Source: a virus. From it: a stretch of 20,002 bases of DNA. The stretch spans positions 1-20,002 of the IMG/VR virus record IMGVR_UViG_3300040801_000841. One strand, 5' to 3'. The notes under the pieces are model-generated. The model saw only the letters and a program-made list of their open reading frames with translations. It had not been told where the DNA came from and searched no databases. The stretch's first letter is position 1, and each line of letters opens with the position of its first letter. The position numbers and the translations under genes were made by a program. Below are positions 1-20,002 of the stretch, piece after piece.

Positions 1-360
1 ACCGTTATAAAAGACGGCACAACTATTCAATCCCAAAGCCACATTACCGCCCAAGCAGTAATTGGCAAACAATGCTATTTCGGCCCTTGTGTAATGATTA
101 TCAATGAAAGAAGGATTTCCAAGTGGCGGGAAATGGATCAAAAGCTACAGGGTCCGGTCATTGGGGATTTTTGCAGGATCGGGGCGGCTTCAAGAATCGC
201 GCCGGGGGTTAAGATTGGCAACAACTGTGAGATTGGGATGGGTGCAGTTGTAATGGATGATGTTCCTGATAATCAGGTTTGGTTCTCAAGGAAAGCCAAA
301 GCTGAGTATCAATATGATACCCCTGAAGGACAGAGGATGAGCGATGTCGTCCATTCATAG
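1..360 (+). CDS. Hexapeptide-repeat O-acyltransferase, 5' end missing
   Basis: The reading frame is open from base 1, so the gene starts outside the window; 119 residues are visible. The residues follow the hexapeptide pattern (I/V-G-x-x-x-x) of left-handed beta-helix acyltransferases, for example VIGDFCRIGAASRIAPGV followed by KIGNNCEIGMGAVVMDDVP. A short loop, INERRISKW, interrupts the coils, as in WxcM-N/maltose-acetyltransferase-like enzymes. The family usually transfers an acetyl or other acyl group from acyl-CoA to a sugar hydroxyl or amine, working as a trimer. The ATG at 94 is internal to the coil domain and is unlikely to be the start. The 3' end overlaps the following glycosyltransferase by 17 bases. 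The family assignment is firm, but the sugar acceptor cannot be told. Confidence 0.82.
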   Translation, partial: TVIKDGTTIQSQSHITAQAVIGKQCYFGPCVMIINERRISKWREMDQKLQGPVIGDFCRIGAASRIAPGVKIGNNCEIGMGAVVMDDVPDNQVWFSRKAKAEYQYDTPEGQRMSDVVHS

Positions 361-1084
361 CCATTGGAGAGATCGTAAGATTCTTACATTTGCGGTAGTT
401 CTCCGGTCTGGCGGAGATTACGTGGTCGAAGACCCGATCATCCTTTCCAGACAGGTTATGAGACATCTTAGAATCCCACATCGTTTTATTTGTTTGACCG
501 ATTTGGATTTCAAAGATGAGTATGCAGAAACTCTTCCACTTATAAATAATTGGCCCGGATGGTGGAGTGTTATTGAGCTTTTCAGGATGATCGGTCCTAC
601 AATCGTTACGGGTTTGGATACTTTGGTTATAGGCAATATTGATCGACTTGGGGAAATGGCTCTTACCTGTCCTGAAACTGATTTTTATATGACAAAACCC
701 CAACCGTTTGCCATTAGAAAAGGGCAAAAAATGTGCAGTGGGGTGATGATATGGAATGGTGACTGGACTTGGTTGTATGAGGAATTTGATCCTGTTTATA
801 TGAATAAATTCGCCGGGGAGCAGGATTATACCACTTGGCAGTTGATAAGAACAAAAACAAAAGTAAGACTCCTTCAAGATGAATTTGACGGATTTTATTC
901 TTATAAGAATAACTGTAGAGAAAAAGGGATGTATCCGAAGGATGCGAGGATGATAGGATTTCATGGACATCCTCGCCCAAGAGAGTGTGAAGAAAAATGG
1001 GTGAAGGATGTTCTATCTGATTATTCTTTACCTCCCCACTCTTTTGTGGAAGTGTTTGAAAAAGCTCATGCGGGGGAAATATGA
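344..1084 (+). CDS. GT-A-fold glycosyltransferase (GT8-like)
   Basis: 246 residues. The N-terminal strand (KILTFAVVLRSGGDYV) opens a nucleotide-sugar-binding Rossmann-like half. Residues 90-100 (GLDTLVIGNID) match the metal-binding 'D-x-D-T-L-V-x-G-x-(L/I)' segment of GT8-type enzymes, although the first Asp of the usual DxD is Gly here. Further family-like blocks are SGVMIWNGD (132-140), GEQDYTTW (158-165) and a late GFHGHPRP (205-212), where a histidine often contacts the metal or diphosphate. It probably transfers a sugar from a nucleotide-sugar donor; acceptor unknown. It overlaps the genes on both sides (17 and 4 bases), so it is part of the same transcript as the two acyltransferases. 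The glycosyltransferase class is confident; family number and linkage are not. Confidence 0.78.
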   Translation: MSSIHSHWRDRKILTFAVVLRSGGDYVVEDPIILSRQVMRHLRIPHRFICLTDLDFKDEYAETLPLINNWPGWWSVIELFRMIGPTIVTGLDTLVIGNIDRLGEMALTCPETDFYMTKPQPFAIRKGQKMCSGVMIWNGDWTWLYEEFDPVYMNKFAGEQDYTTWQLIRTKTKVRLLQDEFDGFYSYKNNCREKGMYPKDARMIGFHGHPRPRECEEKWVKDVLSDYSLPPHSFVEVFEKAHAGEI

Positions 1085-1800
1085 AACCGAGTTACCCCGC
1101 AACGTGTTCTTTATCTTTTCCAAGGCATCATTGCGTTACTTTTGCCACAACTCAGGAATATGTTGATAAAGCCGCTGTTTCTGGAAGGTTGTTAGAAGTA
1201 ATCTACTTGAGCAGTCTTCAGGCTCCGATACGGAATCACATCAGGTGGATTCCATCAGACAATCCAGTTTGGGACTTCTTTGAATACCATAATCAAGTAA
1301 TGGAAGAAGTTGGTCATGCTCCACATGAAATAAGCGAATTTTCAAAAATATCCCCCCATGCTCTTATTGGAAATCCTGGGATGCGGTATGCTACAAAGGG
1401 TGATAGAATAATTTCAATGTTTCATTCTGGTAATGTAGTAATAAAAGCGGGTGTTGAAATAGGGCCGCTTTCTTCCATAGCAAGAGCTACTTTGGACTCT
1501 ACCATAATAGGAGAGAACTGTAAAATAGGTCATGGTGTTTTGGTGGGACATAATTGCATAATTGGAAAAAGAAATATTCTCACTGATACAGCTACGGTTT
1601 ATGGCTCGGTGCATATTGGGGATGATTGCTATATTTCTGGAAATACAATTATCCGAGACCACTTGACCATTGCAGACAGGACTTTTATTGGGATGGGATC
1701 GGTGGTAACAAAGTCTATTCTTGAGCCGGGATGGATTTATGTAGGCAATCCGGCCAAACCACTCAGGAAGATGAAAGATGGGGAACGTCCTTGGGTTTAG
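1081..1800 (+). CDS. Hexapeptide acyltransferase (LpxD/PglD-like C-terminal coil)
   Basis: 239 residues. The ATG overlaps the previous stop (ATGA, 1081-1084). Residues 1-90 form a non-coil domain that I do not recognise. Residues about 92-215 are left-handed beta-helix coils, including GENCKIGHGVLVGHNCIIG (144-162) with two histidines (151 and 157) placed like the catalytic histidines of LpxD/PglD-type N-acyltransferases. The C-terminal GNPAKPLRK (222-230) is the common closing motif of sugar acetyltransferases. Expected role: acylation of a sugar made or transferred by its neighbours. It is a second, distinct acyltransferase in the same cassette. The fold is confident; substrate and acyl donor are unknown. 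Confidence 0.8.
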   Translation: MKPSYPATCSLSFPRHHCVTFATTQEYVDKAAVSGRLLEVIYLSSLQAPIRNHIRWIPSDNPVWDFFEYHNQVMEEVGHAPHEISEFSKISPHALIGNPGMRYATKGDRIISMFHSGNVVIKAGVEIGPLSSIARATLDSTIIGENCKIGHGVLVGHNCIIGKRNILTDTATVYGSVHIGDDCYISGNTIIRDHLTIADRTFIGMGSVVTKSILEPGWIYVGNPAKPLRKMKDGERPWV

Positions 1801-2456
1801 TTCAAGAAACCATAGAGAAGACCCTAAAAGATAGGAATTGGGATTTCTATAGGGATCATTATTTGAATGGGGATTATTCCTTTCAAGAGTTGGTCCGTTT
1901 AAATAATTCCTGGTATGTTGCATTAGAGGAAAACAGAGTTTTTTATCATCAGAAGTGGATAAATAAATTCCTTGGAAAACTCTCTGCTGAGTTTCCTGTA
2001 AGAGTTGTAGAGTTGGGATGCTATAGGGGGGAGTTGGCTGCTGAGATTCTTCCAAAGTATGATGATATTGTTTCTTGGGATGGATATGACATTTGTCATT
2101 ATGCCGTTGATTTTTCAGCTTGCAATGACAAAAGATATTTCCCAACAAAGCTGACTTGTAGTTTTTGGCAATTGCCGGATTTCAAATTTGAGATTTTTGT
2201 TTCTGCCCACACTATAGAGCATTTATCAAACGAAGAAGCAATAGATTTGATGGGATTTCTTGAAAGGAATTGTAGGAAGGGGATTTATCTTGAAATGCCT
2301 ATTAAGGAGGAAGGGAAGAAATGGCGGGGTGGCGCTTCCTCTCATGTTTTAGAATTAGGTAGAAAACATTTCAGACGCTTCTTTCATTCTCATGGTTGGA
2401 AAACAGTGCATGAAGCAACGTATGGGATGGATTGGTCTATAGGGCTGGCAAGATGA
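1791..2456 (+). CDS. SAM-dependent methyltransferase (class I)
   Basis: 221 residues from a TTG start at 1791. An ATG at 1731 in the same frame would overlap the upstream acyltransferase by 70 bases and adds residues that do not look like protein. The TTG has a GATGGGG ribosome site at 1777-1783 and overlaps the upstream stop by 10 bases. Motif I of class I methyltransferases is clear (VVELGCYRGELA, residues 72-83), followed by an acidic post-I strand (WDGYD, 96-100) and a motif-III/IV-like VSAHTIEHL (137-145), as in ubiquinone/sugar methyltransferases. The N-terminal 60 residues are helical and aromatic-rich. Likely role: methylation of a sugar, lipid or peptide acceptor in the cassette's product. 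The enzyme class is confident, the acceptor unknown. Confidence 0.78.
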   Translation: MGLVQETIEKTLKDRNWDFYRDHYLNGDYSFQELVRLNNSWYVALEENRVFYHQKWINKFLGKLSAEFPVRVVELGCYRGELAAEILPKYDDIVSWDGYDICHYAVDFSACNDKRYFPTKLTCSFWQLPDFKFEIFVSAHTIEHLSNEEAIDLMGFLERNCRKGIYLEMPIKEEGKKWRGGASSHVLELGRKHFRRFFHSHGWKTVHEATYGMDWSIGLAR

Positions 2457-3136
2457 TCCCACCGATTCTTATAACAGGCTGCGCGAGGTCTGGAACCTCA
2501 ATGACAGCGGGGATCATTGATAGATGTGGGGCTTTTGGAGGGAAGGTTCAGGGTCCAACAGTTTATAATGCCAAGGGTCAATTTGAAAATACAGCTATTA
2601 GGGACGGTGTGATAAAGCCCTTTCTTCGTAGGATGAAATGCGATCCGAAAGGGCAAAAACCACTTCCTGATCTTTCAAAAGTAAGAATTGTAGAAGCTGC
2701 GGCAGAATGGTTGAGAACACAGGTCTACAATGTGATGAGAGATCATGGTTACGAGTATGGCCCTTGGTATTACAAGGGAGCTAAGATGTGCCTCCTTTGG
2801 CCTTTTTGGGCTAAGGCGTTTCCAAAGGCTAAATGGATACTTGTAAGAAGAAGAAAAGAAGACATCATAAGCTCTTGCTTGAAAACCTATTTCATGGATG
2901 CCTATAGAACGGCCGATGGTTGGGCTGGTTGGGTGGATCACCATGAAAAGTGTTTTGAAGATATGAAAGCTGCCGGGCTTTGGGTTAGAGAGATTTGGCC
3001 GTCAGAAATGGTAAATGGTGATTTTAGCGCCATGGAAAAGGTTGTTTCTGAGATTGGACTGACTTGGAACTCAGAAGCACCTGCTTTTGTTTCTCCAAAA
3101 CTTTGGCACTATACGGGAGGTTCAAATGGCCGTTAG
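2453..3136 (+). CDS. P-loop sulfotransferase
   Basis: 227 residues from the ATG at 2453, which forms an ATGA overlap with the methyltransferase stop. The upstream ATG at 2432 only adds seven residues. Residues 5-17 (ILITGCARSGTSM) match the 5'-phosphosulfate-binding loop of PAPS-dependent sulfotransferases, and residues 130-141 (LVRRRKEDIISS) match the 3'-phosphate-binding block R-x(4)-D-x-x-S. The enzyme would move a sulfuryl group from PAPS to a hydroxyl, often on a glycan. It is close to the usual 220-300-residue length of bacterial and phage members. Its last 11 bases overlap the neck gene at 3126, which ties this cassette to the virion operon. The family is confident; the target (host glycan, phage glycoprotein or small molecule) is open. 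Confidence 0.8.
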   Translation: MIPPILITGCARSGTSMTAGIIDRCGAFGGKVQGPTVYNAKGQFENTAIRDGVIKPFLRRMKCDPKGQKPLPDLSKVRIVEAAAEWLRTQVYNVMRDHGYEYGPWYYKGAKMCLLWPFWAKAFPKAKWILVRRRKEDIISSCLKTYFMDAYRTADGWAGWVDHHEKCFEDMKAAGLWVREIWPSEMVNGDFSAMEKVVSEIGLTWNSEAPAFVSPKLWHYTGGSNGR

Positions 3137-4683: not shown

Positions 4684-5112
4684 ATGACAACTGCTGCTGT
4701 TGCTGGAATTGGTACTCTTTTCAAGAGAGGCACCGAACATGATTCAAGCGTAACAACTTATGCGTCTATTGGGGAGGTCAATAGTATTTCTTGGGATGGC
4801 ATGAGTCGGGAAACCTATGATGTAACCACCCTTGATTCTACTGGTGGTTATGCTGAGTTCATTACAGGGTTGCGGGATGCCGGTAGTCTTAATATCGACA
4901 TGAACTTTCAGCGTGATACTTACGTTGATATGCTTGCTGATTTTGAGGCTTCTACAGCGTGTTATTACCAAATTGTTTTATCTGATACTGGCGCGACCAC
5001 TCTTACCTTTCAGGGATATGTTACTGCTCTACCGCTTACCATCCCGACGAAGGATAAGATTACTTGTGCAATGACCATTAAGATTACGGGCGCTCCGTCC
5101 CTGTCTTCCTAA
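4684..5112 (+). CDS. Major tail (tube) protein
   Basis: 142 residues. The N-terminus (MTTAAVAGIGTLFKRG) and the EVNSISWDGMSRETYDVTTLDS block (about 30-51) are typical of siphovirus tail tube proteins of the lambda gpV/TTP family, where the 'D-V-T-x-L-D-S-x-G-x-x-x-x-(F/Y)' turn precedes a beta-sandwich. Later strands include SLNIDMNFQRD and the C-terminal ITCAMTIKITGAPSLSS, which pairs in the hexameric ring. It would stack into the non-contractile tail tube around the tape measure. It has the strongest ribosome site in the window, and sits between the tail terminator and the chaperone pair. There is no C-terminal Ig extension as in lambda gpV. Confidence 0.85.
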   Translation: MTTAAVAGIGTLFKRGTEHDSSVTTYASIGEVNSISWDGMSRETYDVTTLDSTGGYAEFITGLRDAGSLNIDMNFQRDTYVDMLADFEASTACYYQIVLSDTGATTLTFQGYVTALPLTIPTKDKITCAMTIKITGAPSLSS

Positions 5113-5139
5113 TTTTAAATCTCTTGGAGAAAGTAGAAG

Positions 5140-5514
5140 GTGAGCAAGATGTTGTTAACCAAGCAACTCTTTTCCGATGTCAAGAATACAAACAAACTGA
5201 AGATCATTAAAGTGAAAGTTCCTAATACCGAACATGAATGTTATTTGAAGGAAATGTCTTTAGCGGAAGTGGATGCTTTTGATTTGAGCCGTTTGGATGA
5301 AAAAGGGAATGTCATCACCGCTGATTTCAGAACCAGATTTCTTCTGAGAACACTTTGTGATGAAAAAGGCACTTTGCTTTTTGATCCTGATAGTCCACAA
5401 GATTTCTTGATGTTAAGTTCTTTACCTGCGAAAATACTTCGGCCATTGGCGAAAAAAGCACAAGATCTTAATGGAATGACCGATGAAGAAATAGAGGCCA
5501 CGGAAAAAAACTAA
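5140..5514 (+). CDS. Tail assembly chaperone, short form (gpG analogue)
   Basis: 124 residues from a GTG at 5140. An ATG at 5149 is an alternative and has AGAAGG at 5135-5140 as its own ribosome site. The protein has an N-terminal beta part (LKIIKVKVPNTEHECYLKEM) followed by helices (LAEVDAFDLSRL, FRTRFLLRTLC) and a C-terminal helix ending DEEIEATEKN. This matches phage tail assembly chaperones that bind the tape measure while tube subunits add on. The last two sense codons (AAA AAC) lie inside a slippery heptamer and the stop follows at once, so a share of ribosomes should continue in the -1 frame. Length, place and frameshift signal together make the call firm. Confidence 0.82.
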   Translation: MSKMLLTKQLFSDVKNTNKLKIIKVKVPNTEHECYLKEMSLAEVDAFDLSRLDEKGNVITADFRTRFLLRTLCDEKGTLLFDPDSPQDFLMLSSLPAKILRPLAKKAQDLNGMTDEEIEATEKN

Positions 5515-5768
5515 AAAACCGGCCAGTGAAGATGTTTCTTTTCTCACTGGCCAAAGAGCTGGGGGTTCCTCATCCTGATTTTTTAATGCAGATCCTTACC
5601 CCTCTTCAATTAAGAGAATGGATTGCTTATTCCAATATAATAAATAGACGGGACGAGGAACCCCTACAAAAAAGTAAGCCCAAAACAGTAGCACAAAGTC
5701 CGAATGAAGCGGCAGAAATGTTTAAGTTAATGGCAGAAGTGGAAGCCCGAAAGAAAGCGAAAAAATGA
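5140..5768 (+). CDS. Tail assembly chaperone, frameshifted fusion (gpG-T analogue)
   Basis: Predicted long product of -1 frameshifting at A AAA AAC (5505-5511). The 124 residues of the short form are followed by 85 residues read from 5511 in the next frame, giving about 209 residues. The second part, alone visible as an ORF from GTG 5526, has the gpT/DUF4035 look: FSLAKELGVPHPDFLMQIL then TPLQLREWIAY, recalling the 'L-x(n)-REW-x-AY' block of that family, and a lysine-rich tail. In lambda the fusion recruits tube subunits to the tape measure at a fixed low ratio to gpG. The second ORF has no ribosome site of its own, and its GTG lies in the base of the stimulatory stem, so independent initiation is unlikely. 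The second ORF ends overlapping the tape-measure start by 4 bases. Confidence 0.8.
5505..5552 (+). promoter_or_regulatory. -1 programmed frameshift signal with stimulatory stem-loop
   Basis: The slippery heptamer A AAA AAC (5505-5511) is in the correct phase with the chaperone codons AAA AAC, and a TAA stop follows at 5512-5514. After a 9-nt spacer there is a perfect 9-bp inverted repeat, GGCCAGTGA at 5521-5529 and TCACTGGCC at 5544-5552, with a 14-nt loop. No T-run follows the stem, which argues against a terminator. The -1 frame is open from 5487 through the whole downstream ORF. Confidence 0.85.
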
Positions 5769-8872: not shown

Positions 8873-9282
8873 TGATCCCCGCCTGGGTCGCAGATTATGT
8901 TAACATCCCCTTTAAAAATAAGGGAAGGGATAGAACTGGTGCTGATTGCTACGGCTTATGTAGGCTTGTTGCGCTTGAGCATGATGGGGTTTTGATGCCG
9001 AGTTATCTGGATCAATACGAGGACGCAAACTACGAGAGAACTGCACATATTGTGAGTGATTTAAGTAGGCTTGATTTTATCAAAGTCCCAAACCCAGAAG
9101 TAGGTGCGATGGTGGTACTGCTGGTCAAGGGTTTACCGTGGCATGTAGGGAGAATTGTTTCAGAAGATTTTCATTTTTTGCATACCATGAGGCGGCTTGG
9201 ATCATCGGTTATTGAGCAGCTTTATACTCTTACATGGCCTGAAAGCAAAATAGTTGGTTTCTATCGCTATGCCAGATTCTAA
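8872..9282 (+). CDS. NlpC/P60-like tail-tip peptidase (gpK-like)
   Basis: 136 residues. The start overlaps the previous stop by one base (TGATG). RTGADCYGLCRLV (residues 21-33) contains the NlpC/P60 nucleophile cysteine (C26) in the usual 'D-C-(Y/W)-G-L' setting. PWHVGRI (89-95) supplies the catalytic histidine (H91), and HFLHT (101-105) may give the third polar residue. Such proteins cleave peptidoglycan stem peptides, or serve in tip assembly, at the tail tip during infection. The lambda gpK N-terminal JAB/Mov34 domain is absent, so this is the stand-alone form. The catalytic pair is present; enzymatic activity is inferred. Confidence 0.82.
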   Translation: MIPAWVADYVNIPFKNKGRDRTGADCYGLCRLVALEHDGVLMPSYLDQYEDANYERTAHIVSDLSRLDFIKVPNPEVGAMVVLLVKGLPWHVGRIVSEDFHFLHTMRRLGSSVIEQLYTLTWPESKIVGFYRYARF

Positions 9283-12200
9283 TACTGAGAAATCCCTCCA
9301 ACTTGTCGCTTGTCCGCGCCCGTTTTCGGACATTCAGGTGGTGCGACAAATAGATGCTGGTGGGACGGTTGCGGAAATCTTGATCGCAAACGGCATGGTT
9401 GATATTTTAAGCGGCCATCTTGTAGATGCTCGGATTGAGATTGACGGCGTTGAAGTGCTGCCTGAATGGTGGAGCAGGGTTCGTCCAAAATCCGGCCACC
9501 TGATGACTGTAAGGGCTATTCCTGCGGGCGGTGGTGATGGCGGCGGCAAAGACGTTATGCGGGCCGTCTTGATGATCGGCGTTATCGCTGCTTCAATCTG
9601 GGTTGGTGGTCTTGGTTTTGCTGCGGCCCCGTATCTTGGGGGCGCTCTTGGTGTATTGGGTTCCCTTGCAGTCAATGCTTTAATTCCACCATCGGCCGAG
9701 GACAACCAAAACAAGGCTATTACCACCAGTAGGGGCAACTCAATTACCGGCACCCGAAACACTTTTGTTCCATACGGGCCGGTTCCGCAAGTCTTCGGAA
9801 AGCGGTTGATATATCCACAATATGCCGCAGCACCTTACGCCGAATATATTGGCGATGAGCAATACATGCGGCTGCTCTTTCTCATAGGTTATGGCTACTA
9901 CGATTTAACTGACCACAAGATCGGTGCCACGGCCATCGCCAGCTATGATGACGTTGAAACGCAAGTCTATACCCCGGCCGCGCCATTGACGGCGGGCAAC
10001 GGGCTTTTCCCATCTACCGTTTACACCGAAACCTTGTCCATCGAACTTTTAAAAGATGCGGCTCATACCGAAACCACCCAGGAAGATTGCGACGAGATCC
10101 AGGTGGATATTTATTGGCCAATTGGGCTGTACTATTTGACTAACGATGGCAATCCGGCGCGGCTTTATAACAACTTCACCATCGAATATAGTCTGACCGG
10201 CGAGGACGATTGGACGAGCATCAGCGACACCAACGCCAGGGCCAAGATAACTCGGCCGTTCACAAAGACATTTCGGGTTACGGTTACAAATGGTCAGTAC
10301 GATGTCCGGGTTACGCGCCTGACCGATGACGGTGACAGCGAAAGCAACAAGCACTACGACACCACCTATTGGACGGCGCTCAGGACCGTCACTCACAAGG
10401 CGGCGGTGGAGCTGGACACTTGCACCTATGTGGCGATGCGGATCAGGGCCAGCGGGCAGCTAAATGGGGTTATTGACCAATACAACGTGGTAGCGACCCG
10501 CAAGCTGCCCATTTACAACACCGGGACCAGTACTTGGAGTGCGGTCACGGCCACGCGAAATGCGGCTTGGGCTTACTGTGAGGTTTTGCGCGGGGTAGCG
10601 AATAGATTGGCCGTGGCCGATAGTAGGCTGGACCTTACCACTATTGCTGCCTGGGCTGCCAGGATGGACACGGCGGGCTGGACCGTGGACATGGTGGTGG
10701 ACTACGAAACCACCCCTTTTGCTTTGATAAAGCGGATCGCTGCTGCCGGTCGGGCCTCCTACGGCATCCGCGATATGAAGTTTTCCGTGGTTGAGGACAT
10801 AGAACAGACCACGCCACGCCAGCACATCACGCCGCGCAACTCATGGGGGTTTTCGGCCGAGCGCACCTTTGTCGATTTGCCCCACTGCTTGCGGGTGCAG
10901 TTTCACTCCGAGGACTTGGAGGGTTACGCCGAGGATGAGCTGTTTGTCTATGCCGATGGGTACACCAGCGCCAACGCGACGAAGTTTGAAACCCTCAGAA
11001 TTGACGATATCGTAGACCCCGACCTGGCATGGAAGATCGGTCGTTATCACATAGCGCAAGCCATCCTGCGGCCCTGGAAATACACCGCCAGCATGGACCC
11101 CGAGCATCTTGTCACCACCAGGGGCGACTTGGTGCGCCTGCAACACGACTCAATCTTGGCGGCCCTCGGGCGGGCGCGCGTCAAGACGGTCACGCTAAAC
11201 GGCAGCAGTCAGGCCACGGCTATCACTATTGACGATGCTGTGACCATGGCGGCCGGGACCACTTACGGGGTGCAGATCCGCAAAAAGACAGGGGTTGAGG
11301 TTACATCCACGGTCAATACTGTGGCGGGGGAAAATACAACCTTGACTTTTTCATCCCCAATTGCAGCCGAGAGCGTGCCGGAAGTCGGCGATTTAATTTT
11401 ATTCGGTGAAAGCGGCGAGGAGAGTTTCGACTGCATCATCAAGTCGATCCGGCCGGGGGCGGACCTGACGGCTACCTTGGAATTGCTGGACGCCGCCCCG
11501 GATATTCACGATGCGGATACCGGAGAGATCCCCGCCTATGATCCCAACGTCACGCTGCCGCCCGAGCTTAACCGGGTATCGCCGCCAGCGCCCAGCATTA
11601 TATCGGTATCCACGCAGCACAGCTTGGACGAGAGTCACGGGCCAGCGGGGCGGCTTGAGGTGGTCGTTTATTGGAGCGTGTCGCCGCCGAGCCTGTTTCA
11701 GCCACCCGTTTACTATTTTCAGGCCGAATATACTTATGCCCCCGAAGATGGGACCGAGAGTCAGGGACCGTGGCGGCGTATCGCGGACATCCCAGCCGAC
11801 CAACGTGCTGCGTTTTTTCCGGTGGACTTGGGGGCGATTTATGATTTCCGCGTTCGGTCGGTATCGGCGCAGGGCGGGGTGAGTGCTTGGGATACTTATG
11901 ACGATTACACGGCCAGTGTCGATTCGTGGGTAGGGGTCAACGTCGCGGGCCTTCAGGTGCTTGGTGGTGGAACGTCTTGGACTGGCCGGGACTGCAATAT
12001 TGAGTGGACCGCTACGACCCACAGCCGGGCGCGGGGATATAAGATAGTTGTCGCCAATACCTCTACCAGCGCTGTTTTACGCGAGGAATATGTGGAGGGG
12101 ATCAATAATACCCACTACGAATACACATATTCCATGAATTACGAGGACACCGGCGGCGGGCCGTTGCGGGCGCTCACCTTCTACGTCTATGTCTATGACG

Positions 12201-12652
12201 TTTTCGGAACGCTTTCAAGCTCCGACCCCGGCGACCTGGCAACCTTGGCCGCCACTAATCCGGCCCCGGATATGAGTTCCGGCACCCCTACCGTCACAGC
12301 CATGACGCGGGGGTTAAAATGGGATTGGCGGGCCATCTCCCCTTCTGATGCAGACCTGTCGAGCTTTACCTTATATGTTTCCAAGACCCAGAGCGATGTC
12401 ACCAATATGGAGGCATCGGCCATCGCGGCGACGGTGGGGCCAAAAGAAAAGGTCTGGCACACGTGGGTTTTGGACCCTGGGGACACCTATTACGGGCGGG
12501 TGCTGCCCTATGATGATTTCGGAGCCGGGGTGCCGAGCCAGATCACCAGCGAGGAACCCATCAGGCTCTCCAGCGAGGACGTTTTAGAGGAGCTGGCATA
12601 CTCCATCACGATTACCGATAGCGACGGCCACGTATGGCCGGAGGCGACTTGA
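9269..12652 (+). CDS. Central tail hub / host-specificity protein (TipJ/gpJ-like)
   Basis: 1127 residues from the ATG at 9269 (a TTG at 9254 would add five residues; neither has a clear ribosome site). The N-terminus has the GVEVLPEWWSRVRPK block (60-74), a glycine run GGGDGGG (87-93) and a hydrophobic segment (about 98-140), which is characteristic of TipJ-type hubs that fuse a gpI-like part to gpJ. Next come hub beta-domains with GTRNTFVPYGPVPQVFGKR. The C-terminal third contains three fibronectin-III-like units (about 768-890, 890-990, 995-1098). The chain stops without the usual hub C-terminal segment, which instead appears in the next gene. It forms the tail tip that plugs the tube and carries receptor-binding proteins. 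Notably GC-richer than the genes before it. Confidence 0.8.
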   Translation: MPDSNTEKSLQLVACPRPFSDIQVVRQIDAGGTVAEILIANGMVDILSGHLVDARIEIDGVEVLPEWWSRVRPKSGHLMTVRAIPAGGGDGGGKDVMRAVLMIGVIAASIWVGGLGFAAAPYLGGALGVLGSLAVNALIPPSAEDNQNKAITTSRGNSITGTRNTFVPYGPVPQVFGKRLIYPQYAAAPYAEYIGDEQYMRLLFLIGYGYYDLTDHKIGATAIASYDDVETQVYTPAAPLTAGNGLFPSTVYTETLSIELLKDAAHTETTQEDCDEIQVDIYWPIGLYYLTNDGNPARLYNNFTIEYSLTGEDDWTSISDTNARAKITRPFTKTFRVTVTNGQYDVRVTRLTDDGDSESNKHYDTTYWTALRTVTHKAAVELDTCTYVAMRIRASGQLNGVIDQYNVVATRKLPIYNTGTSTWSAVTATRNAAWAYCEVLRGVANRLAVADSRLDLTTIAAWAARMDTAGWTVDMVVDYETTPFALIKRIAAAGRASYGIRDMKFSVVEDIEQTTPRQHITPRNSWGFSAERTFVDLPHCLRVQFHSEDLEGYAEDELFVYADGYTSANATKFETLRIDDIVDPDLAWKIGRYHIAQAILRPWKYTASMDPEHLVTTRGDLVRLQHDSILAALGRARVKTVTLNGSSQATAITIDDAVTMAAGTTYGVQIRKKTGVEVTSTVNTVAGENTTLTFSSPIAAESVPEVGDLILFGESGEESFDCIIKSIRPGADLTATLELLDAAPDIHDADTGEIPAYDPNVTLPPELNRVSPPAPSIISVSTQHSLDESHGPAGRLEVVVYWSVSPPSLFQPPVYYFQAEYTYAPEDGTESQGPWRRIADIPADQRAAFFPVDLGAIYDFRVRSVSAQGGVSAWDTYDDYTASVDSWVGVNVAGLQVLGGGTSWTGRDCNIEWTATTHSRARGYKIVVANTSTSAVLREEYVEGINNTHYEYTYSMNYEDTGGGPLRALTFYVYVYDVFGTLSSSDPGDLATLAATNPAPDMSSGTPTVTAMTRGLKWDWRAISPSDADLSSFTLYVSKTQSDVTNMEASAIAATVGPKEKVWHTWVLDPGDTYYGRVLPYDDFGAGVPSQITSEEPIRLSSEDVLEELAYSITITDSDGHVWPEAT

Positions 12653-12656
12653 CGAT

Positions 12657-15600
12657 ATGACGAATTATTACATAGACCCCGATGACGGCACCAGCGGCGG
12701 AGCCGGAACCTTCGCCGACCCGCTCGATTCCTGGGCAAACCTGCCGAGCATGTCTGAATCGGATTGTGTCTACTTTTTATGCGGAACCACTTTTACTGCG
12801 CCAGACCGTCTACGCATACAATGGAGCGGCACCGAGGCCAACCCAGCTGTAATCGGAGCTTATTATTCAGACGGTGGGTCACCAGCGGCAGCGGTTCATG
12901 GTGTCAATGGAGATGGCCGTCCGATTATCAGCGGAAGCAACTATACTATCCCGGCAAACGACTCTTACCAAGGCTTAATACATATTTCCGGCGAGTACGG
13001 TTATATTACGATAGAAAATATTGAGGTATATCGTTCCGGTGATGTAGGTGTGTATCTCACTGGGAATTACACAGCAGACTCCCCACACAATATCACGATC
13101 TCGAACGTATATATCAACGGATCTTGGGGGTCTGGTATTTATTGCAACAAAGTCGCATATGCCTATGTGACTGTTGAGGATTGCGAGGTTTACCACCACA
13201 ATCACAGGGTTCCTACTGTTGGCGGGAATTGGGGGGCTGGGATTAGTTTCGTTAACAGCCCATACGCAAACGCTACAGTCAGGAGAAACTACGTTCACGA
13301 GGGTTACGGCGAGGGCATATCTTCCACAAGAGTCGTGCAGCTTTCAGTTGCCGATCATTGCGGCCACGTTACAGTGGAGGATAACCTTATTTGGAATAAT
13401 CGCCGCGTTTCAATCTATTTTAACTCAACCGAATATAATATAGCCAGAAGAAATATCGCTATAGGTGCTGGCCCCAGTGTTGTGATAAGCGCTGGCACCG
13501 AAGAGGGCCGCGGTTGGAACGCCAGTGGGATTACGGTTAATTCAGAAGTTAGAACAACGCCCCTTTCGAATGTGGTTAATTACAACACAGTTTATAATAA
13601 TATTGTTGTCGGTCATGCAACGGGCTTCACCTTCGGCTCTGCTTACACCGAAAACGCAAGCTCTACCGGAAACAAATTTTATAATAATACAGCCATCGCC
13701 AATTTAAGAAACTACAGCATATCATCTGAGATCGGAAGTAACACGCTCTCAGGAATAGAGTTTAAGAACAACATCAGTCTATGCCCGTCAGACTCAACCT
13801 CTGTCGATGTGCGCGATAACTATACATGGATCGCCACAAAATCCGGCTTGGTGATTGATTATAACTCTTGGCACAGCCAGCCGTCGAATTGGGCTGGTGA
13901 CAATGATGTTCAAACCGATGGGAATTGGACCCAAATCGCCGGGTTTCAATCTCTGACCGCACCAATAGATATTGATGTTTTGCAACCGCTTGAAATTTGC
14001 TCCGCTGTTGGGGCCGCAACGCCTCTGGGAAGTCCGTACAACCTCAAAATCGCGGATACAAGCACCTATGACGTAGGCCCGCCGCTTGCGATTGATGTTG
14101 ACACGGTAGAAAACGACACGGACCTGGGGGCGATCCCATTTCAGGGTACGACATCAACAGGATATGAATATGTTGGGTATTATACCAGCAGCGGGGAACC
14201 AACATCTAATCCGAGTATAGAAACATACCTTGCCGATGATCGCACCTATCTTAGAAAGTGGACTGCGACCGAAGACGGGACCGCCAGATCGGTGCGTTTT
14301 TATGTGGCCGATACGTGGGATTCAAACGCCACATGGGTTGTTGCTTATAAAGATGCGGTTGGCGCCGGGAATTTATCCATCTTGGGTTATGCGGCCATTG
14401 AAGACCCAAGTGTAACGGACGATTGGACTGCGGCATACACAATATCTGCGCCCCCTGGAGGCGATCTTGGCTTTAGCTCTGGCGACGATCTGTATTTCGG
14501 ATTTGCGGTTGATCCTGTCGGGGCCGAAACCTGCGAAACGGCACGGGAGAACACCGGCACGAACGCGCTGCATTATATCACAACATCACTCGCAAGTGGT
14601 GTTTTGCTCGAAATTGATGTCGGGGATGTAAATGTGTCGGCTGTAAGCTTTGAATTGCCTTTTGTTTTGGAGTATTCGGTTGGTGGGGCGGTTTCTGATA
14701 CAACCGATCCGACCGTGGCGATAATTACCCCGGCCGATGATCCTTACACAGCTACGGGGCTGCACAACGTAACGGTTGCTGGGGTTGCCTCTGATGTTTC
14801 CGGGATCTCTTTGGTCGAGTGGGAAACGACTCACGGAGGGGCTGGGACTGCTCTTGGCACGACAGAATGGACGGCATTGGATGTTCCAATATCTTCCGGG
14901 GCCACCACGATCACGATAACCGCTACAGACGCGGCGGGGAACGATGACGATGATACTATCGTCGTCAATTTTGCTGGGCCAACGGGCGGGGTGTTGCTCG
15001 GTTATGATGACGAGGATTCAAGTGGGATTCCTACCACAACCCCTGACTATATTTCTATAACAGATGCCCCCCGGCATTATTTTAGGGTGCCCGAAACAAC
15101 CACCGAGGCCGGTATGATCTCCGGGGTCTATTTTTACGCCGGGGCAACATGGGACCCGCTGGCGGCATGGGTGGCGGTTTATCAATATCATAGCAGTTCC
15201 GTATATGAGCTTTTAGGATATGCTGAGATCGGTGAGGTTGCATACGAAGCCTGGAATTTTGTGCCTATTACAACGCCAGCAGCAGGAAAGAGCCTAATTT
15301 TTGAATCCGGGACCGTTCTTGTTCCGTCTCTGGTTTTGTCCTGCGACGAGAACAATCAAGTCTATTACGGAAGGGACTACCCTGCTGCCGAAAACACTCT
15401 TTTTGCATCAACTGCGATTGGAAGCGTTCCCACCAGCGCATTTTTGACAGCCGGTTTATCCACCAGTCTTTTCGACCGGGCGATCACCATTTGCTATGTG
15501 CCAACCAGCTTAGACGTTACCGACCCGGTGGTGACGATCACCAGCCATACCAGCCCCTATAGTGCCGGGACCGCTCCGACCATCACCATCGCCGGGACAG

Positions 15601-17300
15601 CCACCGACGATGTGGGTGTGGTGGAAGTCACCTGGGAGGATGATCAAGGACATAGCGGCACGGCCAGTGGGACCAGTTCTTGGATGATCGCCGATGCCGA
15701 GCTGGTGGTGGGCACAACCGTTTTTACGATCACCGCAGAAGACGCAGCAGAAAACACAGGCGAGGCCGAGCTTACGGTGACGCGGGTTTCAGCCACGGCC
15801 TCCCGGTTGCCAAAAATCTATGACGGCGACAAGGTGACGGCTGCGATGACCTATTCATCGTCTGAGCCTGGTGGTGAAATCAAGTGGATTCAGTACGCAT
15901 ATAAAATTCAGGACATTATAGACAGAGTTATCGTATGGTCGCCGGATAATATGTCGGGGTATGTTGGCTTGTCCGAAGATGGGATAATATGGAATTATTA
16001 TGGTGGTGTGGATGCCAGCGAGGCGCTGGATGATGATGGACGGATGGTGGATTACGGAACCGAGACACCTTATGGCGTGTTGATGGTCGGTGGGGGCGCA
16101 TATAATTTGCCGCTGCCGCAAGCCCGGACAGCTCGGTATGGGCGGTTTTATTTTCACGTTCCGGAAAGCGAGACGCGAACGATCAACGAACTGCGGATCG
16201 TGCGCGAGGTGGTGGCCGAGCAGATGTACGCCGAAAACCTTGGGGCGATCAGCGCGGACATCACCGGGGTCAGCGCCGGGACGATGCAGAGCCAAAACCT
16301 GGATGGCGACACCGGCACCCTGATTGACCTGAACAACGCCAACGCCATCTTTGGCGGCACAGAATCAAAAAAGATCGAGCTGGACGGCGAGGACGGCATC
16401 GCCTACGTCCGCGAGGGCGGCAAGCTGGTGGTGGGTGATAACAATATCACCCTTGATTCTACCAACACCGGCGGATCACAGGGCAGGATCGAAGTTGCCC
16501 CGGACGGAGGCAAAACCGGTCAAGACTACGTTTTGATCGAGTCCGGCAACGTCACACAAATGTATTATAGTGCTGGCGCCCACAGGCCCTATGGGACGCT
16601 GAATCGGATTGAAGTGGGTGTGGGCACACATGGGGAAACGATCACCATCCCAGGATATTGGCGTGAGCAACCGCGTGTGGTGATTATGCCGGAGAGTATC
16701 GCGGTCTATAACGCCAGCTACTCAGCTCAAAATCAGAAGCTGATTTGCCGCCCCACCAATCTCCAACTTGTGGCCGGCACCACAGATCGCTACCAGTTTA
16801 CCGGATTCATGGCATTGGAGATCAGCTCGGCCTCTGTGGTTGGTGACGGCACCATGACCGGATTTGTCTACACGCCGACCAGCAGAAACGATTTTCCGGC
16901 CGTCACGGTGACATGCAGCAGTGTGGAGGCTGGGTGCCAACGGGTTGTAATCACCTATAGCCATAACTGTTGTTACGGTGAGCCGCAGCAAATGTATTCG
17001 ATCTCAAGGACGGTGAATTTCGATGTTTATTATTCGGCAGCCTGGCATACGATTAAAAGCGAATACTGGCGACGATATACCACATACGCCGACCGAATTT
17101 ATTCAACAGCCGATACCGGGTGGGTGGGGGCCAACATCACCAGCTACCGGCTGACCATGAGCGGCACCAACGCCTATGAAATCGCGGGTGGGGGTGATCA
17201 GAAAAGCCAGAGCCTGGAGCCGGTCAGCAGGACGGAATATTTGAGCAGTACCACGCAGCAGGTAACGGGCCAATACACCTGGATGGCGTCGGGGAGATAG
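12657..17300 (+). CDS. Tail spike/fibre: beta-helix, Ig-like repeats and hub-type C-terminus
   Basis: 1547 residues, starting 4 nt after the hub with GGAGG at 12640-12644. Residues 1-about 450 are a right-handed parallel beta-helix of the pectate-lyase-like type: YYIDPDDGTSGGAGTFADP opening, many Asn-ladder coils such as ITIENIEVYRSG and VTVEDCEVYHHN. Such domains often bind or cut surface polysaccharides; no catalytic triad can be assigned. Then follow a beta-domain (about 500-676), an Ig-like domain (about 682-772), a second beta-domain (about 778-952), a second Ig-like domain (about 955-1043), a discoidin-like region (about 1050-1180), and a segment AENLGAISADITGVSAGTMQ (1192-1211) normally found at the end of hub proteins. 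The last 300 residues are unassigned beta-rich sequence. Likely receptor-binding protein. Confidence 0.75.
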   Translation: MTNYYIDPDDGTSGGAGTFADPLDSWANLPSMSESDCVYFLCGTTFTAPDRLRIQWSGTEANPAVIGAYYSDGGSPAAAVHGVNGDGRPIISGSNYTIPANDSYQGLIHISGEYGYITIENIEVYRSGDVGVYLTGNYTADSPHNITISNVYINGSWGSGIYCNKVAYAYVTVEDCEVYHHNHRVPTVGGNWGAGISFVNSPYANATVRRNYVHEGYGEGISSTRVVQLSVADHCGHVTVEDNLIWNNRRVSIYFNSTEYNIARRNIAIGAGPSVVISAGTEEGRGWNASGITVNSEVRTTPLSNVVNYNTVYNNIVVGHATGFTFGSAYTENASSTGNKFYNNTAIANLRNYSISSEIGSNTLSGIEFKNNISLCPSDSTSVDVRDNYTWIATKSGLVIDYNSWHSQPSNWAGDNDVQTDGNWTQIAGFQSLTAPIDIDVLQPLEICSAVGAATPLGSPYNLKIADTSTYDVGPPLAIDVDTVENDTDLGAIPFQGTTSTGYEYVGYYTSSGEPTSNPSIETYLADDRTYLRKWTATEDGTARSVRFYVADTWDSNATWVVAYKDAVGAGNLSILGYAAIEDPSVTDDWTAAYTISAPPGGDLGFSSGDDLYFGFAVDPVGAETCETARENTGTNALHYITTSLASGVLLEIDVGDVNVSAVSFELPFVLEYSVGGAVSDTTDPTVAIITPADDPYTATGLHNVTVAGVASDVSGISLVEWETTHGGAGTALGTTEWTALDVPISSGATTITITATDAAGNDDDDTIVVNFAGPTGGVLLGYDDEDSSGIPTTTPDYISITDAPRHYFRVPETTTEAGMISGVYFYAGATWDPLAAWVAVYQYHSSSVYELLGYAEIGEVAYEAWNFVPITTPAAGKSLIFESGTVLVPSLVLSCDENNQVYYGRDYPAAENTLFASTAIGSVPTSAFLTAGLSTSLFDRAITICYVPTSLDVTDPVVTITSHTSPYSAGTAPTITIAGTATDDVGVVEVTWEDDQGHSGTASGTSSWMIADAELVVGTTVFTITAEDAAENTGEAELTVTRVSATASRLPKIYDGDKVTAAMTYSSSEPGGEIKWIQYAYKIQDIIDRVIVWSPDNMSGYVGLSEDGIIWNYYGGVDASEALDDDGRMVDYGTETPYGVLMVGGGAYNLPLPQARTARYGRFYFHVPESETRTINELRIVREVVAEQMYAENLGAISADITGVSAGTMQSQNLDGDTGTLIDLNNANAIFGGTESKKIELDGEDGIAYVREGGKLVVGDNNITLDSTNTGGSQGRIEVAPDGGKTGQDYVLIESGNVTQMYYSAGAHRPYGTLNRIEVGVGTHGETITIPGYWREQPRVVIMPESIAVYNASYSAQNQKLICRPTNLQLVAGTTDRYQFTGFMALEISSASVVGDGTMTGFVYTPTSRNDFPAVTVTCSSVEAGCQRVVITYSHNCCYGEPQQMYSISRTVNFDVYYSAAWHTIKSEYWRRYTTYADRIYSTADTGWVGANITSYRLTMSGTNAYEIAGGGDQKSQSLEPVSRTEYLSSTTQQVTGQYTWMASGR
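14154..15785 (+). repeat. Two copies of a beta-domain/Ig-like pair in the spike
   Basis: Copy 1 spans residues about 500-772, copy 2 about 778-1043. Both beta-domains share the course 'G-Y-(Y/D)...YFRV or YLRKW...SVRFYVADTWD / GVYFYAGATWDP...AAWVAVY / WVVAYKD...LLGYAEI / ILGYAAI'. Both Ig-like parts start T-D-P-(T/V)-V and carry VEW/VTW and a TI(T)ITA-x-DAA-x-N motif. The copies are diverged, so the duplication is old or the modules were acquired separately. Confidence 0.7.
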
Positions 17301-17971: not shown

Positions 17972-18054
17972 ACCCGCTTTGTGATTTCAAGCGGTTCTGT
18001 GAGTACGTTGCGGCGATGTTTGCCATGCGCCTTTATTATGAGGGGTTGGAATAA
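17968..18054 (+). CDS. 28-residue ORF coupled to both neighbours
   Basis: The ORF reads MNPLCDFKRFCEYVAAMFAM then RLYYEGLE and stop. Its ATG overlaps the preceding stop (ATGA, 17968-17971) and its stop overlaps the next ATG by one base (TAATG, 18052-18056). This double coupling is what real genes in the operon show, and no alternative ORF explains these 83 bases. The peptide has two cysteines and an amphipathic aromatic helix. It could be a genuine small protein or simply a leader that carries ribosomes to the next gene. No function can be proposed. Confidence 0.45.
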   Translation: MNPLCDFKRFCEYVAAMFAMRLYYEGLE

Positions 18055-19274
18055 TGGCTGTTCATATCAGGAGTGAAGGCGGAACTATAATCACATCTGA
18101 GGACGGAACTCCCATCCATAGTGAGGGTGAGGTTACGATCCAGCTTACCGCCTCAATCGCAGCCACATCAAGTACACCGGATATTGGCAGTGGGATTGAT
18201 CGCTACCTAACTGCCAATATCGCCGGGGTTTCTGCAACCCCCGATATTACCGTTTCCGAAAACACAATTTCCTTTGTTGCCTCTATTACGGGGACATCGC
18301 TTACTCCGCAAATCCATTACGTTCTTGCCCGTCATTTGGTTGCGGATATTGTAGCTGAATCAGAAACTCCAAATATTCCACCTTGGCGGAGTTCTGCAAC
18401 GAGACCGCACCCGTTTATCAAGTCCGAGGGTGGCACTACCATTACTTCCGAGAGTGGCACCAGGATAAGAAACGAAGGGGCGGCGATTGGATTCCAGGCT
18501 TCAATCTCTGGCACATCTTCAACGCCTGATATTGCATATGGATACCATTTATATTTAACCTCCAATATTTCCGGCATATCTTCAACGCCTGATATTTCTG
18601 CCTCTATGGCAGCGGACATGGAACTCATCGCCAATATTGGTGGGGTATCGTCAACTCCTGACATTGATCTTGGGAGCATGGGGCGATATTTCTCCGCTAA
18701 TATTCGTGGGGAATCGTCCACGCCAGATATTACGGCGACGATTGTTGGGCAAGCAATTCATTTTACGGCTTCTGTTTCTGGAACATCATCGACTCCTGAT
18801 ATTACCCCGGCACTCAAGCGGTATTTGATTGGAAATATCACTGCAAACTCTGAAACACCAGCCGCAGACGCTACGGTACAACGTAATCTGTTGGCTTCAA
18901 TTCTTGGAGAGTCGGTTACTCCGACCGCTGATTTTGGTGGGTTTAAACGCTATTTCACTGCGGCCATTTCTGGGGAATCTTTTACCCCGGATATTGCGGT
19001 ATCGCTTGCCGGGTTTGTATTTTTCACCGCTTCAATTTCCGGTACATCTTCAACCCCGGATATTGCGGCGGTAAACCAGCGGAAACTTATTGCCCGCATT
19101 GTAAACAATTCTGCAACCCCAGACGTTGACTATATTCTACATCGGTATTTAATAGCATCTATATTAGCGGAGTCCACCACCCCATCGGTGGCGGCGTTGA
19201 TTTCGGGTCTTGGGATCATTATAGACCCGACCATCGAATCATTAACAGTTACAAGAACAATCTCAAGCATTTAA
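18054..19274 (+). CDS. Repeat protein with about fifteen S-x-T-P-D-I units
   Basis: 406 residues, coupled to the 28-codon ORF by TAATG, with GAGGGG at 18040-18045 upstream. It consists of a Ser/Glu/Gly header (residues 5-28), four repeats, a second header (122-144), and eleven further repeats. Each unit is about 22 residues of the form '(L/F)-x-A-(S/N/D)-I-x-x-x-S-x-T-P-D-I' plus a short variable linker. Each unit could form one or two beta strands, so the whole may be a beta-solenoid or extended fibre. It lacks a signal peptide, enzymatic motif or coiled coil. Its place among fibre genes suggests a virion appendage or adhesin-like part. I do not recognise a named family; the role is inferred. 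Confidence 0.75.
   Translation: MAVHIRSEGGTIITSEDGTPIHSEGEVTIQLTASIAATSSTPDIGSGIDRYLTANIAGVSATPDITVSENTISFVASITGTSLTPQIHYVLARHLVADIVAESETPNIPPWRSSATRPHPFIKSEGGTTITSESGTRIRNEGAAIGFQASISGTSSTPDIAYGYHLYLTSNISGISSTPDISASMAADMELIANIGGVSSTPDIDLGSMGRYFSANIRGESSTPDITATIVGQAIHFTASVSGTSSTPDITPALKRYLIGNITANSETPAADATVQRNLLASILGESVTPTADFGGFKRYFTAAISGESFTPDIAVSLAGFVFFTASISGTSSTPDIAAVNQRKLIARIVNNSATPDVDYILHRYLIASILAESTTPSVAALISGLGIIIDPTIESLTVTRTISSI
18066..18134 (+). repeat. First SEGG header block of the repeat protein
   Basis: Residues 5-27. It is itself three 8-residue steps: IRSEGGTI, ITSEDGTP, IHSEGEVT. A related block occurs at 18417-18485. Similar E-D/G-G-x steps occur as short beta-roll caps in other phage tail-region proteins, which is a recollection and not something shown here. 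Confidence 0.65.
18138..19202 (+). repeat. Array of about 15 protein-level repeats, period about 66 nt
   Basis: The conserved T-P dipeptide falls at residues 41, 62, 84, 106, 157, 179, 201, 223, 247, 269, 290, 311, 335, 355 and 376. Spacings are 20-24 residues except for the 51-residue step that holds the second header. The units differ in codons (TCAACGCCTGAT, TCGACTCCTGAT, TCAACCCCGGAT for S-T-P-D), so selection acts on the protein rather than the DNA. Confidence 0.8.
18417..18485 (+). repeat. Second SEGG header block of the repeat protein
   Basis: Residues 122-144, again three 8-residue steps: IKSEGGTT, ITSESGTR, IRNEGAAI. It sits between repeats 4 and 5, so the gene looks like a fusion or duplication of two header-plus-repeat units. 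Confidence 0.65.
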
Positions 19275-19286
19275 GGGAGACACGAC

Positions 19287-20002
19287 ATGGGATCATTGAC
19301 CAATCACGCAGAAGACGAATTGTTGGATCATGTTTTCAACGCCGCCTATTCCCCTGTTGCAACGGTCTATTTGGCTCTTTCAACAGCGGACATCGGTGAG
19401 GCGGGGAGTGGGCTTTCTGAGCCTCTAACGGCGAATGGATACGCCCGTAAGGCAATCACCTTCGCCGCCGCCGCAAGTCGCAAGGTGACGCAAACAGGCG
19501 CCGTTACGTTCGACACAGCGACGGACTCATGGGGCACAATTACCCATTGGGGAATTTACGATTCAGGAACCAGAGCGGCGGGCAACTGCTTGGCCTACGG
19601 GGCCTTCACTTCCAGCTTTGCTCCGGTTTCCGGCAATGCCCCAACTATTGCGGACGGCACCATTTATGTTCAGATCAACGCCACTTCCACTGGCGCTGGG
19701 TTCACTGATTATGCCGTCCATAACTTGCTCAATCTGATGTTCCGCAATGTGGCCTTTTCCAAGCCCTCAACCTATGTTGCGCTTTGCACCGCAACAGTTG
19801 CTGATGCGGCCACCAGTATCACCGAGGAGGCCGGGACCGGATACGCTCGGAAGCAGGTCAACATCAATGGCGGGTCTTCTCCTACTTGGGATCTCTCATC
19901 TGGTGGGGTGGTGGACAATACTCACGAGATTGTGCTTGATCCGGCTACCGCAAACGACTGGACAGAAGTCGTGGCAATGGCGATTGTGGACGCAGCTTCA
20001 AG
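19287..20002 (+). CDS. Tail fibre/virion protein with tandem duplicated domain, 3' end missing
   Basis: 238 residues are visible from the ATG at 19287 (ribosome site AAGGGAGA, 19273-19280), and the frame stays open to the right edge. The N-terminus MGSLTNHAEDELLDHVFNAA followed by VATVYLALSTAD and NGYARKAITFAAAASR is typical of a widespread phage virion/fibre domain. A second copy begins at about residue 139 (TDYAVHNLLNLMFRN, STYVALCTAT, GTGYARKQVNI). The first copy also has ITHWGIYDSG, matched by VVAMAIVDA in the second. Likely an appendage or receptor-binding element; no catalytic motif is seen. The full length is unknown. Confidence 0.72.
   Translation, partial: MGSLTNHAEDELLDHVFNAAYSPVATVYLALSTADIGEAGSGLSEPLTANGYARKAITFAAAASRKVTQTGAVTFDTATDSWGTITHWGIYDSGTRAAGNCLAYGAFTSSFAPVSGNAPTIADGTIYVQINATSTGAGFTDYAVHNLLNLMFRNVAFSKPSTYVALCTATVADAATSITEEAGTGYARKQVNINGGSSPTWDLSSGGVVDNTHEIVLDPATANDWTEVVAMAIVDAAS
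19296..20002 (+). repeat. Tandem duplication of the fibre domain
   Basis: Copy 1 covers residues about 4-133 and copy 2 about 139 onward, offset by 138 residues. Matching landmarks: NHAEDELLDHVF / DYAVHNLLNLMF, VYLALSTAD / YVALCTATV, GYARKAITF / GYARKQVNI. Copy 2 reaches the window edge. Confidence 0.65.

Follow-up and report, generated by a model that had tools for sequence, protein, structure and literature searches.

Near its 3' end, a stretch of viral DNA of 20,002 nucleotides (IMG/VR record IMGVR_UViG_3300040801_000841, positions 1 to 20,002; hereafter the window) carries a gene for a protein composed of short tandem repeats. The question raised by this locus is what such a protein is for, and whether it belongs to the virion. 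The features relevant to this question are listed below; L012 and L073 denote two contigs with homologous genes, and L004 a closely related sister phage.

9254..12652, + strand: homologue of the central tail fibre J, 97% identical in L004
12657..17300, + strand: large upstream fibre protein with Ig-like parts, its N-terminal part unlike that of L004
17968..18054, + strand: ORF of 28 aa, overlapping the start of the repeat gene in TAATG and kept in L004
18054..19274, + strand: tandem-repeat protein of 406 aa (the end coordinate takes in the stop codon)
18066..18128, + strand: head motif 1, IRSEGGTIITSEDGTPIHSEG, residues 5-25
18132..18383, + strand: repeat block 1, units 1-4
18414..18476, + strand: head motif 2, IKSEGGTTITSESGTRIRNEG, after a linker, at about residues 121-141
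18480..19199, + strand: repeat block 2, units 5-15, collinear with the homologues in L012 and L073
19200..19271, + strand: C-terminal cap beginning GLGIIIDPTIE
19287..20002, + strand: Gp80-family partner gene (PF23140, GP4 fibre I), matched in two stretches and running off the window

The protein contains exactly 15 S-x-T-P units between residues 39 and 374, which agrees with the approximate count given in the original prediction. The successive spacings are 21, 22, 21, 52, 21, 23, 22, 24, 21, 21, 22, 23, 21 and 21 residues. The regularity that had been claimed, with spacings of 20-24 residues and a period of 22, is therefore real, but the commonest spacing is 21 and there is one break of 52 residues after unit 4. 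This break holds a second copy of the head motif that opens the protein, so that the layout is head, four units, linker, head, eleven units and cap. The unit consensus is L/F-x-A-x-I-x-G-x-S-x-T-P-D-I, and the head consensus is IRSEGGxxITSExGTxIxxE, with one copy ahead of each block. The two heads, the cap and the synteny with a Gp80-family gene had not been part of the original prediction.

All 15 units have the serine, threonine and proline without exception, and for each of these residues all four codons of its box (TCN, ACN and CCN) are in use. Between units, the pairwise means over the 14-residue core are 0.71 for pS and 0.34 for pN. Because pS is near saturation while pN is well below it, the repeats are old and under purifying selection, with synonymous change between units nearly saturated and the protein constrained. 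Diverged codons under a selected protein pattern, as originally proposed, are thus borne out. At the DNA level, Tandem Repeats Finder reported no repeat array at the gene. The repeats are not a product of chance, since an HMM built from the L012 and L073 units, with the window left out, scores the window protein at an E-value of 6e-58, compared with about 1 for the best-scoring of 200 shuffled sequences.

L012 and L073 are IMG/VR contigs that were retrieved with degenerate DNA patterns, and their proteins contain 8 to 20 LxAxIxGxSxTP units with a period of 21. The reverse HMM search gave E-values of 1.2e-34 for L073 and 2.8e-23 for L012. The alignment with the window protein is collinear in both cases, longer units included, and the cap has a clear counterpart in L073 (ALGVIIDPSIE) and a weak one in L012. 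All three proteins share L-x-A-x-I/V-x-G-x-S-x-T-P units at a period of about 21 residues and an adjoining Gp80 gene. In contrast to the window protein, those of L012 and L073 lack the head motifs and carry a fused N-terminal domain. In L073, this domain appears beta-helix-like, judging from a weak Pfam lead and the look of the sequence, and is followed by about 20 units; in L012, it is different and has no Pfam match. The gene order in L012 is J, a protein of 266 aa, repeat protein and Gp80, and in the window J is likewise followed, after other genes, by the repeat protein and Gp80, whereas the L073 pair lies downstream of head genes (portal and major head protein) and not after J. The repeats also have an open, repetitive frame on the antisense strand (SGVxDxPxI; window 18335-18757 on the - strand, L073 1733-2950 and L012 752-1321 on the + strand). 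This frame is probably a by-product of codon symmetry, and it yields spurious homology matches.

Searches of Pfam, PHROGs and PDB sequences with the repeat protein gave no credible match, which upholds the expected absence from named families. Using the window, L012 and L073 repeats as queries, tblastn against phages and plasmids returned no match, although repeats of this kind may be hidden from it by the low-complexity filter. No viral contig matched the direct peptide patterns, and contig L003, found with the first period-21 DNA pattern, was discarded as a single chance match. A scan of genome contigs yielded 50 stretches without any genuine repeat protein, and the HMM search found no relative in 754 genomes sampled from the classes to which a Rhizobium and a Lysobacter centre belong. 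Of the viral and bacterial relatives that were to be sought according to the original prediction, viral ones were obtained with the DNA patterns, namely L012 and L073, and none in these bacterial genomes.

The gene directly downstream of the repeat gene belongs to PF23140 in 3/3 phages (window, L012 and L073). Pfam names this family 'Podophage GP4 fiber I protein gp80', after the Ralstonia podophage GP4. The window's Gp80 gene matches it with an E-value of 1.5e-43 and 148.6 bits, against a gathering cut-off of 27. A match to PDB 8jou (E 2.4e-4) lies in the second half of this gene. The repeat protein itself has no match to the family. Together with the extra N-terminal domains of the homologues, this neighbour of fibre type is in line with the virion-gene setting and appendage role that had been proposed. 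The label of the family differs between resources, as PHROGs lists phrog_240 as 'head protein' and several phage records follow this name instead of the Pfam one.

The association with Gp80 was also assessed in ten phage loci picked by Gp80 homology alone, in which genes were scored for repeats of 18-24 residues. A score of z > 4 was found for 6/20 immediate Gp80 neighbours and 6/79 other genes (p 0.014), and at z 6 the counts were 5/20 and 1/79 (p 0.001), both in an exploratory analysis. With the score in an earlier form, the best threshold yielded p 0.018 and the others were not significant, and a version with two additional loci, which were not blindly chosen, gave p 0.002-0.005. The enrichment of repeat proteins next to Gp80 is therefore modest and exploratory, the score having been tuned along the way. 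Examples of such neighbours are a LamG protein of a Desulfofustis phage, gp28 of the mycobacteriophage Stinger and a Mu gp48-like baseplate protein of PVJ1. The domains to which repeats next to Gp80 are fused are of the LamG lectin, Gly-rich and Mu gp48 types. In the Burkholderia phage DC1, gp53 is a Gp80-family protein that matches 8jou at 1e-56 and adjoins the repeat protein gp54.

Several further repeat proteins were observed around Gp80 genes. In the Burkholderia phages DC1 and BcepIL02, a previously unremarked repeat protein directly follows Gp80 (L093 9259-10116 and L094 6294-7151); that of DC1 is flanked by Gp80 on one side and by a homologue of PDB 8jou chain D on the other. Baseplate-region proteins adjoining Gp80 carry short-period repeats at their N-terminus in L085 (5402-6427) and L089 (5403-6326), the Mu gp48-like assignment coming from L085. 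Three genes past Gp80, gp11 of Octadecabacter DB virus 2 (L088 7065-8591) contains the tandem repeat HALTAxSVEAASETTAPEIGQT of 22 residues, and its annotation as 'ribonuclease E' looks wrong. The Slicko01 genes at 21477-25317 were rejected as a candidate pair because they encode neither Gp80 nor repeat proteins.

The sister phage L004 provides a comparison within nearly identical surroundings. Its genes closely resemble those of the window until the repeat gene begins, and there the DNA similarity stops after ATGGCTG. In the same slot, L004 encodes a protein of 379 aa with a head, four units, a second head and about nine LxAxxGxxxxTGTxA units. The units of L004, taken together with those of L010, showed no detectable homology to the SxTP units in hhalign comparisons of unit profiles (E 0.13 and 0.5), and were rejected as their homologues. 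The following gene of L004, which is cut by the contig end, has a start unlike that of the window's Gp80 gene. The two phages differ by a cassette swap of unrelated repeats in the same layout. The large fibre gene (window 12657-17300, L004 6456-10982) also has a shared C-terminal part and a different N-terminal part, which in the L004 version scores as a right-handed beta helix. A repeat protein with 22-residue units like those of L004 (ADAGAYVLTGTAA) is encoded by L010, a Manatee Spring podovirus, at 5000-5737, its annotated start being possibly downstream of the first units. At the other end of the window, positions 1-3136 hold, as read by eye, hexapeptide acyltransferase-like, glycosyltransferase-like, methyltransferase-like and P-loop sulfotransferase-like genes, which are unusual ahead of tail genes.

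The first heads of the window and L004 proteins are alike, with a pairwise p of 0.0002 by shuffling. The pattern [ILV]xxExGxx[ILV]xxExG occurs in three proteins (window, L004 and CRP-5 gp55) among 5,726 ORFs, against a shuffle mean of 0.8 ORFs; CRP-5 gp55 had been retrieved through Gp80. With an HMM of the L004 and CRP-5 heads, the window did not score above shuffles. Head homology across the three is consequently a lead and not proven. CRP-5 gp55, CRP-4 gp54 and MEP401 gp59 all have the head motif, repeats of about 20 residues and an adjoining Gp80 gene. CRP-4 and CRP-5 are cultured Roseobacter phages, and MEP401 is a cultured Methylophilales phage, as is MEP402, which has this layout too.

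Structure prediction of the monomer with AlphaFold2 gave low-confidence models that are all-beta and not disordered, so that the disordered outcome which would have spoken against the original prediction did not occur. The whole protein was modelled with a pLDDT of 40 and a pTM of 0.37, and a stretch of six units, run with eight rows, with 52 and 0.50; both models place one long strand in each unit. Foldseek and fold searches with these models gave no significant match. Intertwined trimers often score poorly when modelled as monomers. The side fibre of the siphovirus LSH1 is a published case of this (PMC13243795).

The repeats, the selection on the protein, its homologues, the Gp80 synteny and the cassette difference from the sister phage are direct observations, and we infer that the protein is most likely an exposed, exchangeable appendage part with a virion location, a beta-rod fold, contact with Gp80 and a role in host contact. 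More specifically, we read it as a stalk or adhesin that can be swapped between phages and that belongs to a Gp80-linked appendage of the virion, with a probability of about 0.55. Each unit of 21-24 residues would form one long beta strand (L-x-A-x-I-x-G), a tight S-x-T-P turn and a short strand, and the units could stack into a beta rod, either as a monomeric solenoid or as an intertwined fibre. A head stands ahead of each repeat block and may serve in docking or capping. Like GP4 fibre I, the Gp80 protein would connect this rod to the tail or neck, and exchange of the exposed repeat surface as a cassette between phages would alter what the virion touches.

An unlikely alternative that nevertheless deserves attention is a decoration of the head or neck, in which the repeat protein and Gp80 sit on the capsid or collar and not at the tail tip, making weak contact with hosts or surfaces as head fibres do. 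The position of the L073 pair after the capsid region, the 'head protein' label in PHROGs and, in L084, L087 and DC1, the location of Gp80 a few genes past the one for the major capsid protein are consistent with it. However, the pair follows J in the window and in L012, GP4 gp80 is a fibre in Pfam, and Gp80 lies in the baseplate region of L085 and L089.

The repeats could also be a weakly constrained flexible linker without a specific fold. The low confidence of the models would fit, and the authors of the LSH1 study considered such a linker for an unmodellable segment of their own, while also wondering about an unnoticed repeat (PMC13243795). This explanation is nevertheless rather improbable given the excess of pS over pN, the invariant S, T and P, and the collinearity of the homologues down to longer units and cap. 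Least probable is a protein outside the virion, such as a morphogenesis factor, a chaperone or a secreted product. In its favour, phage JC1 gp54, whose DC1 relative is a repeat protein, is absent from the JC1 virion table, which also counts against the stalk or adhesin, whereas gp53, the counterpart of DC1 gp53, was detected in virions (PMC9144972). Against a protein outside the virion, the partner Gp80 is virion-associated in relatives, and homologous or similar repeats are fused to beta-helix-like, lectin and baseplate domains.

Beyond the stalk or adhesin proposed for the window, it is possible, though rather doubtful at present, that these loci represent an unrecognised and widespread appendage class of siphoviruses, podoviruses and myoviruses, consisting of a conserved small Gp80 and an exchangeable beta-repeat protein. 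In such a class, the unit sequence could be replaced wholesale while heads and blocks keep their alternating layout; what is conserved would then be the geometry of the rod rather than its sequence. If true, this would account for a recurrent annotation gap, namely hypothetical, repetitive and unmodellable proteins adjoining Gp80 genes, and would make Gp80 a marker for variable appendage proteins in many phages. It would also mean that unrelated repeats fill one structural role in near-identical viruses, which would make shaft and receptor roles testable.

Among known systems, Gp80/GP4 fibre I (PDB 8jou) is the family of the adjoining gene; the repeat protein itself is not a Gp80, and no solved chain fits it. 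The top fold match in the PDB, although not significant (E 0.39), was Curli CsgA, for which no sequence relation was found. CsgA is a secreted bacterial amyloid with beta repeats of about 22 residues. DC1 gp54 and BcepIL02 gp56, the latter annotated as a virion structural protein, resemble the Gp80-linked class in having short-period repeats right after Gp80, but their units are GxxxLxL...GxGxR without SxTP. CRP-5 gp55, CRP-4 gp54 and MEP401 gp59 are alike in layout, but have other unit sequences, for example LADLTGTGTISAxG. The original prediction had regarded such an appendage as not described for this phage type; this has to be qualified, since a comparable virion module, in which repeats went unrecognised, has been published for LSH1 (PMC13243795). 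All three members of this module, gp34-36, were found in virions (PMC13243795). One is a lyase-like beta-helix protein whose C-terminal part is poorly predicted, one resembles 8JOU_g and is described as a fibril that joins an adhesin to the GP4 collar, and one has an Ig fold. Compared by published description, no repeats are reported in LSH1, but its module combines, like that of the window, a poorly predicted beta-like segment with a GP4 fibre-like partner. LSH1 gp34-36, seen in virions, are the closest described counterpart of the window module.
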